From contig JAEPNO010000020.1 in assembly GCA_017643365.1 (NCBI GenBank), positions 1 to 54,064 on the forward strand: a stretch of DNA of 54,064 bases, read 5' to 3'. Below the pieces are notes generated by a model. That model worked only from the letters and a program-made list of their open reading frames with translations, searched no databases and had not been told where the DNA came from. Made by a program: the position numbers and the translations under genes. Positions 7,116 through 20,972 of the stretch are shown here, piece by piece (position 1 is the first letter of the stretch; each line of letters starts with the position of its first letter). Source of the stretch: Balneolaceae bacterium (GTDB lineage: Bacteria; Bacteroidota; Rhodothermia; Balneolales; Balneolaceae).

Positions 7116-8573
7116 CCGGCCTTACTCCTATCGTCGTAAGGAATTAAAGATTAAAAATTAAGAATGGGATTAGTCCCTTTGCCGAGCACTAGTTTTAAGT
7201 GTCATTCAGATCCGCCAGCTGGCGGAGATGAACCTAGACGGATGAAAGGCACTTATCTTAATTCCCACCGCAATACTTTATCAACGTTGATATAGTACCG
7301 CGTTCCTCGAGCAACGACCCCCTCAAACATCCTCCGTCACATCTCGCGCCGCTCAATGTGCCACCTCCTTCAAAGGAGGACTTTTCGGTCGGCACAAAAG
7401 GACAAGAAAAACACCTCATCTGTCTTCTCCTGAAGGAGAAGGACTTTTTAAGTTATCCAAAGTTAGGATTAGTCACTCCGAGGTATCGAGGAGTCTTCAC
7501 TTCTAATTACTAAGCTGACAATGAGTTTTGCAGATCATTCTCCGCCGGCTGGCGGAGATGAACCTAGTTGGATTATTATTTCTCGCTAGATGAACGGTTT
7601 CATTTTTCATCTACGTTGAATTAGTTCAGCGTGCCTCTGAGCAAAGATCCCTCAAACATCCTCCGTCACATTTCGCGCCGCTCAATGTGCCACCTCCTTC
7701 AAAGGAGGACTTTTCCGGTCGGCACAATAGGACAGTGGATCAGGATGACTTGTTTTCTAAAGTCATTCAGAGCGTAAGCGATGAACCTAGACGGATGAAA
7801 GGCACTAGTCTTAATTCCCACCGCAATACTATATCAACGCTGACACCCCTTTTGGGGGAACCGTATTGACCGAAACCCCGACCAATTCAGATCCTTCGGA
7901 AGTATCCTCAGGATGACTGGTTAGAAAGGTCATTCAGAGCGAAAGCGATGAAACTAGACGGGTTATAATTTCTCGCTCGATGAATGGGATTACCTTATAT
8001 CAACGTTGATTTAGATATGCGTTCCTCGAGCAACGACCCCCTCAAACATCCTCCGTCACATTTCGCGCCGCTCAACGTGCCACCTCCTTCAAAGGAGGAC
8101 TTTTCGGTCGGCACAAAAGGACAAGAAAAACACCTCATCTACACCTGCACTCGAATAATGAGTTTGGTGCATAAATATCTTCTCCTGAAAGAGAGGAACA
8201 GCATGACAGCCTAAAAAAGTCATTCAGATCCGCCAGCTGGCGGAGATGAACCTAGTTGGATTATTATTTCTCGCTAGATGAACGGTTTCATTTTTCATCT
8301 ACGTTGAATTAGTTCAGCGTGCCTCTGAGCAAAGATTCCTTCAAACATCCTCCGTCACATTTCGCGCCGCTCAACGTGCCACCTCCTTCAAAGGAGGACT
8401 TTTTTAACTTATTTAAAGTCAGATCAACGCGCTCCCTCTCCTATTGTAGGAGAGGGTTGGGGTGAGGTAATCCTTCTCCACCAAAAAGTATACACATTAC
8501 GAAATTGTGTATAAGGCTTTAGAGTAGCAGTCTTGCGAAATTGTTTTTATCAATTCAACAAACCAACGTAACG
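7116..8573. repeat. Block of dispersed palindromic repeats between uvrB and the SDR gene
   Basis: No gene is credible here. Two modules alternate. Module A is GTCATTCAG followed by TCCGCCAGCTGGCGGA or AGCGnAAGCG and then GATGAACCTAG, seen at about 7201, 7536, 7762, 7927 and 8219. Module B runs from CCTCAAACATCCTCCGTCAC through CGCGCCGCTCAA to CCACCTCCTTCAAAGGAGG, seen at about 7320, 7649, 8039 and 8338, each copy about 68 bp and nearly identical. Between them are repeated links such as GCGTTCCTCGAGCAACGACC and GCGTGCCTCTGAGCAAAGAT. Most elements are palindromes with 2-6 nt loops. Reading frames inside the block are repeat-derived. Confidence 0.8.
8434..8456. repeat. Perfect hairpin ending the uvrB-SDR repeat block
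   Basis: CCCTCTCCTA and TAGGAGAGGG form a perfect 10-bp stem around a TTG loop, followed by GGGGTGAGGT. The same pairing with different internal bases is present near 249-268. It could be folded in RNA or act as a repeat target. It is not followed by a U-tract. Confidence 0.7.
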
Positions 8574-17556: not shown

Positions 17557-18834
17557 ATGACTTTTAAAGACCTTCATTTAATTCCATCGATACTTAAAGC
17601 GCTGGAAGATGAAAACTATACGGCCCCTACCGATATTCAAGCTAAATCGATTCCATTAATTTTGGATCGAAAAGATGTGCTCGGAAGCGCACAAACCGGA
17701 ACAGGGAAAACCGCTGCTTTTGCCATCCCGATCATTCAACATTTGGCCAAAGAGAAAGAACAACACGGCAACTCAAATCATCCTAAGATTACTACCCTGG
17801 TTGTTACCCCAACGCGAGAGCTCGCTATTCAAATTGATGAGAGCTTTTCGACTTATGGCAAATACACCGACATCAAAAACACCGTGATATTTGGTGGTGT
17901 GAAACAAGGTCGGCAGGTAAAACGCATCGAGCGCGGTGTGGATGTGTTAATCGCAACTCCGGGTCGTTTACTCGATTTGATGAATCAGCGTTTGGTTTCC
18001 CTTAAAGACATCAAATACTTTGTGCTGGATGAAGCCGATCGCATGCTGGACATGGGCTTTATCAACGATATCAAAAAGATCATCGCTCAACTCCCGAAGA
18101 AAAGACAATCGCTCTTTTTCTCCGCTACGATGCCGCAAAACATCATCGATCTCTCCCGAAAGATTCTTCATCAACCGGAAAAGATTGCGGTGAATCCGGT
18201 TTCATCCACCGCCGAAACCATTCAACAGTTTGTGTACCCGACCAACAAGAATCTGAAGACGAAGTTACTCCTTGATATTTTGGATAATAAGGACATCGAG
18301 CAAGTTTTGTTGTTTTCCAGAACCAAACATGGAGCCGATCGCATAGTTCGTACACTGAAGAAGGAAAGAATTACATCTGCTGCAATTCATGGGAACAAGG
18401 CGCAAAATCAACGCCAGAAAGTGCTCGGTGAGTTTAAAGATGGCACTATTCGTGTGCTTGTTGCCACCGACATCGCCGCACGTGGAATCGATATCGATAA
18501 ACTCCGATATGTGATCAATTACGACATCCCGAACGAGCCTGAAACGTATGTTCATCGCATCGGGAGATGCGGTCGCGCCGGCGAAGATGGCATTGCTATA
18601 TCGATCTGTGAGCCGGAAGAAAATGCGTTCCTCCGCGACATCGAAAAGCTTACGAAGCAAAAACTTCAGGTTGTAGAAGACAATCCGTTTCCCCAAACGG
18701 ATAAACCGATGAACAATGCCGAAAAGAAAGAAGCGGAAAAAGAGAAACAACGCAGAAAACAAGAGTTTTTCGCTAATCGGAATAAAAACCGTTCAGCTCA
18801 AAAAGCAAAGCCAAGAGGCAAAAAGCGGAGGTAG
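17557..18834 (+). CDS. DEAD-box ATP-dependent RNA helicase, RhlE-like
   Basis: 425 aa. Both RecA-like domains are complete: Q motif around TAPTDIQAKSIP, motif I AQTGTGKT (45-52), PTRELA, TPGR, DEAD (158-161), SAT, then ARGIDI and HRIGRCGRAG. The usual Thr of HRIGRTGRAG is Cys here. The C-terminus is a basic, disordered tail (KEKQRRKQEFFANRNKNRS, ending GKKRR) that binds RNA. The family unwinds short RNA duplexes in ribosome assembly and RNA decay. It is monocistronic and followed directly by the hairpin array. Confidence 0.93.
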   Translation: MTFKDLHLIPSILKALEDENYTAPTDIQAKSIPLILDRKDVLGSAQTGTGKTAAFAIPIIQHLAKEKEQHGNSNHPKITTLVVTPTRELAIQIDESFSTYGKYTDIKNTVIFGGVKQGRQVKRIERGVDVLIATPGRLLDLMNQRLVSLKDIKYFVLDEADRMLDMGFINDIKKIIAQLPKKRQSLFFSATMPQNIIDLSRKILHQPEKIAVNPVSSTAETIQQFVYPTNKNLKTKLLLDILDNKDIEQVLLFSRTKHGADRIVRTLKKERITSAAIHGNKAQNQRQKVLGEFKDGTIRVLVATDIAARGIDIDKLRYVINYDIPNEPETYVHRIGRCGRAGEDGIAISICEPEENAFLRDIEKLTKQKLQVVEDNPFPQTDKPMNNAEKKEAEKEKQRRKQEFFANRNKNRSAQKAKPRGKKRR

Positions 18835-18848
18835 GGTTTTTTTTATGT

Positions 18849-20345
18849 GAAGGAAAGAAGTCCTTCACTTGAGAAATTCTTTGTTCAGGAATATTTCCAT
18901 TTTGCAATAATCTCATCGTCATCCCTGCGTGTTGTCGTGAAGGACTGAAGTCCTTCACTTGGGAAATTCATTTTTTAGGAATATTTCCATTTTGCAATAA
19001 TCTCATCGTCATCCCTGCGAAGGCAGGGATCTGTGGTTATTTAGAAGCTAGTTATATGGTTTTAACCCTGCGTGTTGTTGCGAAGGACTAACGTCCTTCC
19101 CTTGGGAAAATCTTGAACTCGATAACCTTTTACCAAATGAACGGTTTCAACCGTTCAGCATACTCAAGAACTTCGCTTCGGGAAACAGACTCCGTTCAAA
19201 AGGAACCACAAATCAACTTTACGGGACTAAAGTCCCTGCCTGTCAGCCGAAGTTTTTAACGTAGGCTGGCTTGATTCTTACCGTGGCCTAACCTCGAACA
19301 TAATCAAGCAAGGGTTTTAACCCTGCGTTTATTTCGTACCGGAATCGCAATCGCATGGATAAAGCGCCAGTAATTATTTCCCGTTCGCTATTATCTCATC
19401 GTCATCCCTGCGTAGGCAGGGATCTGTGGTTGCTTAGAAGCTAGATTTATGGTTTTAGCTCTGCGTGTGGTTGTGAAGGACTGAAGTCCTTCACTTGGTA
19501 AATCTTTGTTTAGATAAACTTTTACCAAATGTACGGTTTCAACCGTTCATCGAACTCGCGAATTTCGATTAGCAAACAGACTCAGGTCAATAGAAACATC
19601 AATCAAAATTACGGGACTAAAGTCCCTGCCTGTCAGCCGAAGTTTTTAACGTAGGCTGGCTTGTTTATTACCGTGGTCTAAACTCGAACATAATCAAGCA
19701 AGGGTTTTAACCCTGCGTTATCGGGCGAAGGAATAGTTATTACACGGGGAAATAGCGCCGGGAAAAGATTCCACGCCTTTCGCTATAATCTCAACGTCAT
19801 CCCTGCGCAGGCAGAGATCTTAGGTTATTTAGAAGCTAGATTTATAGTTTTAGCTCTGCGTGTGGTTGCGAAGGACTAAAGTCCTTCACTTGGGAAAATC
19901 TTGATTTCGATAAGCTTTTACCAAATGAACGGTTTCAACCGTTCAGCATACTCAAGAACTTCGCTTCGGGAAACAGACTCCGTTCAAAAGGAACCACAAA
20001 TCAACTTTACGGGACTAAAGTCCCTGCCTGTCAGCCGAAGTTTTTAACGTAGGCTGGCTTGATTATTACCGTGGTCTAAACTCGAACATAATCAAGCAAG
20101 GGTTTTAACCCTGCGAGTTTTTGTGTAGGAATAGCCATCATTCGGATAAAAATTCCGGTATTTGATTACCCGCCTTTCGCTATAATCTCAACGTCATCCC
20201 TGCGCAGGCAGTGATCATTGGTTGCTTAGAAGCTTGATTATGGTATTAGCTCTGCGTTTTGTTGCGAAGGACTGAAGTCCTTCCCTTGGGAAAATCTTGA
20301 ACTCGATAACCTTTTACCAAATGAACGGTTTCAACCGTTCCTGCA
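18849..20345. repeat. Tandem array of about 395-bp units composed of short hairpins
   Basis: After a short degenerate start (18849-18990) three complete units follow, 18991-19383, 19384-19778 and 19779-20175, then a partial one, 20176-20345. Each unit carries the same ordered palindromes: a TCCCTGCG..GGCAGGGA stem, GAAGGACTGAAGTCCTTC, GAACGGTTTCAACCGTTC, GGGACTAAAGTCCC, CAGCC..GGCTG and AAGGGTTTTAACCCT. Stems are very well kept while the last about 60 bp of each unit differ, so the hairpins appear to be what is conserved. No ORF is shared by the units. The form resembles REP/BIME arrays rather than CRISPR, because there are no uniform repeat-spacer lengths. Confidence 0.88.
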
Positions 20346-20431: not shown

Positions 20432-20469
20432 AAAAAAAAGAGGGAGTAAGCGGATCAAGCTTACCCCCT
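20432..20469 (-). terminator. Rho-independent terminator after the MarR gene
   Basis: Read on the minus strand: AGGGGGTAAGC, a 7-nt loop, GCTTACTCCCT, then CTTTTTTTT. The 11-bp stem contains one G-T pair and is followed by a strong U-tract, about 54 bp beyond the marR stop. Confidence 0.85.
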
Positions 20470-20522: not shown

Positions 20523-20972
20523 TTATTTTGTCTGTACCCCAACTTTTTTGGCTAGCCTGCCAAGTTCCTCCAGCTCCTCAGGAGTTAAAACTTCAAATTC
20601 ACCTACAATACGCTCTAAATGCTTCGGGAAGAAGTCTTCGATAAAGGATTTACCATTTTTGGTAAGGCTGATGATCATAGCCCGGCGATCTTTCGGGTTT
20701 TTCTTGCGTTCAACCCAACCGCTTTTTTCCAGGTTATCAATCACCATGGTGATGTTACCACCACTTTTTAACAATCGAGCACCAAGTTCTTTCTGGTTTT
20801 GAGGCCCTACATGTAGGAGAGCTTCCAAAACACCGAATTGACTAACCGTCAAGTCATTCTCAGAAAGATGCCGTAACAGCCGATTATTAAGGCTTTCGGT
20901 TGATCGCATCAATTTAATGAACGTATTTAGCGTACGGGTTTCTTTTTCCGTGCCTTGATAATGCGTCGGCAT
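20523..20972 (-). CDS. MarR-family transcriptional regulator
   Basis: 149 aa, winged helix-turn-helix. Seen: the long N-terminal dimer helix (TLNTFIKLMRSTESLNNRLL), LTVSQFGVLEALLHVGP, the recognition region KELGARLLKSGGNITMVIDN, and the wing VERKKNPKDRRAMIISLTKNG. The family represses genes until a small ligand or an oxidant releases it. No Cys redox switch is visible. The target is unknown; it has its own terminator at 20432-20469. Confidence 0.93.
   Translation of the reverse strand: MPTHYQGTEKETRTLNTFIKLMRSTESLNNRLLRHLSENDLTVSQFGVLEALLHVGPQNQKELGARLLKSGGNITMVIDNLEKSGWVERKKNPKDRRAMIISLTKNGKSFIEDFFPKHLERIVGEFEVLTPEELEELGRLAKKVGVQTK

Follow-up and report, generated by a model that had tools for sequence, protein, structure and literature searches.

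A tandem array of hairpins occupies positions 18,847 to 20,340 of the window, one 54-kb contig (C12, 54,064 nucleotides) of a 3.77-Mb Balneolaceae draft genome, and lies between convergent rhlE and marR genes. The family assignment follows from a protein with 74% identity in a named Balneolaceae MAG. It is an ordinary kind of element, a composite BIME cluster, with REP and BIME taken in their general sense. Probably, inverted hairpin pairs of two types (A and B) were placed in the rhlE-marR gap by HUH transposases, the resulting block was amplified in tandem, and the stems were kept because only folding copies serve as substrates. No cellular function is needed to explain the array.

Architecture of the array

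TRF detected a short 5′ repeat (18847–19019, period 90, 1.9 copies) and a main array (18997–20340, period 396, 3.4 copies, 83% matches) with unit boundaries at about 18997, 19392, 19787 and 20184. Spacing from copy to copy was 393, 395 and 397 bp, and pairwise identity between the aligned units ranged from 83 to 90%. With arms of at least 6 nucleotides and loops of at most 4, the array contained 17 palindromes, compared to a mean of 1.9 (sd 1.3, maximum 7) in 200 dinucleotide shuffles. An earlier note on this DNA had described three full units and one partial unit of about 395 bp, each with six ordered hairpins. The tandem arrangement and the number of units were reproduced and the palindromes it named were present where it had placed them, but of the six hairpins per unit only five are clear; the sixth is broken, a degenerate GGTTTTA(A/G)C half-site that follows the C hairpin.

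The order within a unit is C hairpin, type-A pair, type-B pair and spacer. The C hairpin is CGTC-tagged (CGTC-ATCCCTGC-GAAG-GCAGGGAT) and corresponds to a CGTC-1-type REP (GTCATCCCTGCGAAGGCAGGGAT). It occurs on the plus strand at 19008–19030, 19401–19423, 19796–19818 and 20193–20215, the last two copies (units 3 and 4) having one stem mismatch each. The type-A pairs (19082–19157, 19473–19550, 19870–19945 and 20266–20340, the last element of the array) combine a GAAGGACT..AGTCCTTC with a GAACGGTT..AACCGTTC hairpin in inverted orientation. Their TTGGTAAA-like tails (CTTGGTAAA-like / TTTACCAAA) point inwards, towards each other, and DNA folding predicted two hairpins around an inner stem (z = −5.9 for unit 1 and −6.7 for unit 2). 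The type-B pairs (19223–19324, 19613–19714 and 20011–20112) consist of GGGACT..AGTCCC and AGGGTT..AACCCT hairpins separated by about 75 bp of conserved DNA, and the second hairpin carries a CTTGATTATG tail, which lies on the minus strand in unit 1. Dispersed copies 82–87% identical to the type-B pair of unit 1 were found on contigs C33, C51, C18 and C47. At the 5′ end of the array, repeat and palindrome searches agreed with TRF on the 90-bp tandem duplication, which comprises a type-A REP hairpin, an AT-rich spacer and the start of a C module. It harbors hairpins at 18847–18868 and 18937–18958, the outermost of which has an imperfect stem.

According to the earlier note, the stems hold while about 60 bp at each unit end vary freely. 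About 60 bp do vary, but as a single spacer reaching from the B pair to the next C hairpin, and the stems are not uniformly preserved, as the C hairpins of units 3 and 4 and the imperfect 18847 copy demonstrate. Conversely, conservation extends beyond the hairpins, since the non-hairpin interior of the B module is nearly invariant across units. Given these mismatched C stems and the nearly invariant B interior, the likeness of the array's own units is most simply explained by recent copying of entire modules in tandem. Selection on the stems was dropped as an interpretation of these units because the resemblance covers entire modules and the C stems have deteriorated in units 3 and 4. Of the two alternatives in the earlier note, selection or recent copying of the hairpins, the array itself thus supports copying, and constraint on stems is visible only across dispersed copies.

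The upstream neighbor is an rhlE-like DEAD-box RNA helicase gene (17557–18834, plus strand; Pfam DEAD and Helicase_C) that is transcribed towards the array and is 85% identical to its syntenic copy in a sister species (G032). The convergent neighbor is a MarR-family regulator gene (20523–20972, minus strand; Pfam MarR). A position between convergent genes, strong folding and 8 terminator-like matches compared to 2.1 in shuffles would be expected of a functional RNA, or of a bidirectional terminator or 3′-end stabilizer for rhlE and marR maintained by selection. However, a good T-run is absent from most array hairpins. The one good intrinsic-terminator-like hairpin (20441–20469, T-run on the minus strand) is located outside the array and is conserved in the sister species, which does not have the array. 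Moreover, an Rfam search of the surrounding 5.5 kb (16.5–22 kb) gave no match, and the same hairpins recur at many unrelated sites. Selection for such an RNA or 3′-end function is highly improbable, and intrinsic termination by the array was judged unlikely.

Dispersed copies of the hairpins

Pattern searches, supplemented by inspection of chosen stretches of the window's genome, revealed 52 sites for GGACTNNAGTCC and 34 for GGGTTNNAACCC (2 each for the reversed patterns) as well as 22 copies of the C hairpin (0 for the reversed pattern). Exact type-A tails were found 28 times compared to 1 in the control, and exact type-B tails 19 times compared to 0. The sites are strongly biased towards extragenic DNA: 7 of 101 fell into a reading frame of at least 110 codons, as opposed to 82.7% of random window positions, and some of these seven look like chance matches to the search pattern. 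Short palindromes in many extragenic copies, and inverted pairs with a linker and facing tails in tandem, as formed by A and B, are characteristic of REP/BIME elements, and the genome search proposed in the earlier note thus bore out its comparison with them. The GT(A/G)G head that marks the stem foot in the GTAG REP superfamily is not present; the feet read TTTACCAA and CATAATCAAG.

Arrays of other composition exist in the same genome. C and B hairpins form an array at C51:85.9–86.6 kb, single B-tailed hairpins are repeated with a 258-bp period on C48, and type-A hairpins are mixed with others at C44:199.5–200.6 kb. The C+A+B order was found at the window array only, and of the 37 relatives none but the sister species G032 contained matching pieces. 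With these related arrays at hand, the long ordered mosaic, which the earlier note had called unusual, is not unique.

In a 4.9-kb segmental duplication on C48 (90300–97600), every copy of one small membrane-protein gene is followed by a B-tailed REP array with a 258-bp period, which gives the arrays the look of recombination sites. Near-identical REP contexts 1.7 kb apart at C14:32500–35800 and 3.2 kb apart at C33:236900–241200 suggest further REP-bounded duplications.

Covariation in type-A stems

The earlier note had recommended a comparison of stems between copies. Type-A sites were gathered by their tail alone so that a stem was not required (n = 28). A complete 8-bp stem was present at 19 of the 28 sites with a 2-nt loop and at one more with a 3-nt loop, and the stems belonged to four sequence types (GAAGGACT, GAAGGGTT, GAACGGTT and GAAGGGCT). 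Pairing was counted over 14 distinct sequences, and 95.5% of the cells were paired, a value raised by the prior removal of five sites, of which four had hardly any stem or none and one was the 3-nt-loop copy. In 13 cells both sides had changed. None of 500 shuffles reached this level of pairing, and slid registers were 29–63% paired. The covariation is carried by three of the eight stem pairs. Type-A stems are under constraint, and the covariation is real, although it comes from few columns in related sequences.

Candidate transposases in the same genome

Four matches to Y1_Tnp (PF01797) were detected in the genome. The match at C44:160078–160419 is part of an intact 147-codon gene with type-A hairpin pairs on both flanks, and the match at C22:88275–88517 belongs to a frameshift-split gene with type-B-like pairs on both flanks. 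In the sister species, one related locus (L037) is flanked by type-A-like hairpins and another (L102) by type-B-like hairpins with CTTGTTTATG tails. By analogy with known systems, these C44 and C22 IS200-like HUH genes are likely the movers of the A and B hairpins. Since the C22 gene is split by a frameshift, type B may now be without an active mover. No mover adjoining the C hairpin was found nearby.

The C-terminal part of the split gene continues in another frame (C22:86775–90017), which reflects either a frameshift or an assembly error. The Y1_Tnp genes at C33:94827 and C33:115386 were rejected as movers, as there are no A, B or C hairpins nearby. The first encodes a Y1_Tnp HUH domain in frame inside the methyltransferase part of a protein of about 1200 residues that resembles Eco57I/MmeI-like restriction-modification enzymes, with the Eco57I match split (C33:93327–96629). 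The second specifies a 211-aa Y1_Tnp protein resembling REP_Tyr_transpos below the cut-off, with REP-like hairpins absent from its surroundings (C33:113886–117209).

By sequence, the C44 protein family comes closest among solved structures to the IS200/IS605 TnpAs of IS608 and ISDra2 (PDB 2a6m and 2xm3), which are hairpin-dependent single-strand transposases, and the proteins match IS200 TnpA models. A hairpin close to either terminus is also a feature of IS200 elements, so that the A and B hairpins might be the ends of ordinary IS200/IS605 elements, that is, dead IS200-like or MITE remnants rather than REPs. IS608 and ISDra2, however, are complete mobile insertion sequences with nearly identical copies, whereas here short gene-less hairpin pairs have spread. 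The C44 gene has no near-identical full copies in its genome; low-copy diverged genes are found instead, with several tandem short hairpin pairs on both sides. Furthermore, the inverted hairpins of dispersed pairs are only 55–90 bp apart at other loci, which leaves no space for transposase remnants between them. An origin as insertion sequence remnants is quite unlikely.

The earlier note had assumed a RAYT-type mover elsewhere. Candidate genes do reside in the same genome, but alignment did not reveal the NP(L/V)(R/K)xG motif by the catalytic tyrosine, which defines RAYTs according to Nunvar et al. 2010 (PMC2817692), and the repeats are devoid of the GT(A/G)G head. The placement is RAYT-like in the sense of Nunvar et al., in that hairpins flank both the C44 and the C22 gene and a palindrome is shared by the two sides in many relatives (see below); the abundance of the repeats was taken from the window's genome only. 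Thus, the C44/C22 movers are not RAYTs in Nunvar's sense, though placed like RAYTs.

Palindromes flank related transposase genes in the Balneolales

A contig scan with the C44 protein yielded one relative; relatives were then collected by a search across genomes. Of 74 relatives from the order, all pre-filtered for Y..Q..H/R, 66 had Y..Q..HH, 58 DHxH, 10 NHxH and, by regular expression, 59 WQ. TnpA-Y1 subclass 1.2, which occurs in Bacteroidetes and Cyanobacteria, is characterized by Y..Q..HH (YIxNQxxHH), WQ and DH[IV]H (Quentin et al. 2018, PMC6006769). The C44 protein itself departs slightly from this signature and reads NHIH and YIYHQEKIH. Placed by motif, the movers would fit subclass 1.2. 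The same survey tabulated REPs as "no" for the subclass, which generally is without terminal IS200 hairpins; this recorded absence, a description and not a criterion, does not hold for the genes studied here.

The same palindrome was present on both sides in 38 of the 72 genes of the order for which both flanks were available, compared to a mean of 0.45 (maximum 2) for mismatched flanks. None of 25 rhlE genes and none of 39 window ORFs, taken as controls within genomes, showed this. Elsewhere in the phylum the count was 8 of 50 compared to 0.4 with mismatched flanks. The loci are not all independent, as there are several per genome and a few near-identical pairs; such cases do not account for the magnitude of the contrast. 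The palindromes differ from gene to gene and were seen in direct as well as inverted orientation. Sharing between loci climbs with protein identity, from about 0–2% of pairs below 60% identity to about 9–11% at 60–80%. The two-flank rule fails in about half of the order's genes and in most genes from elsewhere in the phylum, for which degenerate REPs, assembly edges or another target may be responsible.

A GTAG near the hairpin feet was detected at 5 of the 38 loci compared to 4 at random positions. Over the same loci there was a weak excess of ACAA (16 vs 5) and CAAG (9 vs 3), too weak to be claimed as a universal foot motif. One genome (G067) contains two equal-scoring copies of a subclass-1.2-like gene (C21:48174–48590 and C21:234904–235320), which might have arisen by recent movement of the entire unit.

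A search of the open-access literature yielded no later publication on REPs of subclass 1.2, and the association appears to be new. On balance, we favor the idea that subclass 1.2 represents an independent, IS200-derived lineage of REP-mobilizing HUH enzymes separate from the GTAG-reading RAYTs. These enzymes would use gene-specific perfect palindromes with a tail as guide and would have seeded composite arrays across Balneolales and parts of Bacteroidota.

Comparison with known systems

The closest parallel in overall design is E. coli BIME-2 and its REPtron (TnpAREP, subclass 2.2; REP Y/Z1/Z2). Both consist of two different inverted hairpins with facing tails in tandem, extragenic arrangement, and in both the same genome has a Y1 HUH gene with its own repeats on the flanks. 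In contrast to BIME-2, the Balneolaceae repeats have no GTAG foot, their short stems are perfect instead of bulged, the mover is without the NP motif, and three unrelated hairpin families are joined in each unit. With subclass 1.2 as surveyed (PMC6006769) the genes share DH[VIL]H, WQ, Y..Q..HH, a length of about 150 aa, occurrence in Bacteroidetes and the state of diverged low-copy genes; they differ from it in the gene-specific palindromes on both sides in 38 of 72 cases, where the survey lists no REPs.

The C hairpin has the CGTC tag, 8-bp stem and 4-nt loop by which Di Nocera et al. 2013 (PMC3733652) define CGTC-1 REPs, and its stem begins with AT as in these REPs and Neisseria dRS3. The Neisseria repeats likewise occur in clusters interleaved with other repeat families (PMC3733652). 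The same study found no transposase for CGTC REPs, in line with the lack of a mover near the C hairpin. What differs here is the host, Balneolaceae, and the company of two further REP families within each tandem unit.

Origin of the array

The sister species G032 retains the rhlE-marR-exonuclease order, but its rhlE-marR gap is about 190 bp long compared to about 1.6 kb in the window. It shares the terminator-like hairpin beside marR and holds a different CGTC-like hairpin, GTCCTCCTGAGGATACTTCCGAAGGATCT, to which window copies at 53–96 and 7889–7918 are related. Because the sister gap carries this different hairpin, the gap tolerates REPs and has been colonized differently in the two species. 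Judged from this one outgroup, the array was more probably gained in the lineage of the window than lost in the sister. The CGTC-like palindromic repeat at the two window positions (GATCCTTCGGAAGTATCCTCAGGA) recurs at 1432–1476 of the sister locus L097, within the rhlE-marR gap.

In the proposed mechanism, the HUH transposases from C44:160 kb and C22:88 kb, or related enzymes, would act on single-stranded DNA and recognize a folded hairpin together with its adjacent tail (TTGGTAAA in type A, CTTGATTATG in type B). That such enzymes might read hairpin and tail and move A and B is suggested by analogy to TnpAREP and IS608, where a tetranucleotide on the 5′ side of the palindrome directs cleavage (PMC8266576). 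Cutting and rejoining would place A and B pairs in the gap beside a C hairpin. The entire C+A+B block would then have multiplied through tandem duplication and unequal exchange, a step supported by the similarity of the units and by their fixed order and 393–397 bp spacing. Stems would stay paired because only folding copies are substrates, which would provide a cause for the covariation observed.

The array could have spread by recombination alone. As a plain product of tandem duplication, it would stem from a chance grouping of old REP fossils that replication slippage or unequal crossing-over had multiplied, and transposases would play no part at present. The 83–90% identity of units that keep order and spacing is in line with this, as is the restriction of the C+A+B composite to this locus while other arrays differ in composition, and the 5′ 90-bp duplication shows that duplication occurs. 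Left unexplained are the copies of A, B and C at other sites, their preference for extragenic DNA, the covariation and the clustering at two HUH genes. Duplication without any transposase is thus unlikely; duplication fits better as the later stage of the main explanation, in which HUH-mediated placement would come before tandem amplification.

Biological significance

As a further REP cluster, the array is of less weight than its likely movers. In the Balneolales, these belong by motif to a transposase subclass that had been recorded without REPs and yet sits among gene-specific palindromes. If enzymes and hairpins are functional partners, the domestication of IS200-type transposases into REP-spreading enzymes would have happened outside the GTAG/RAYT lineage, and dozens of enzyme-hairpin pairs would be on hand to probe how stem and tail are read.
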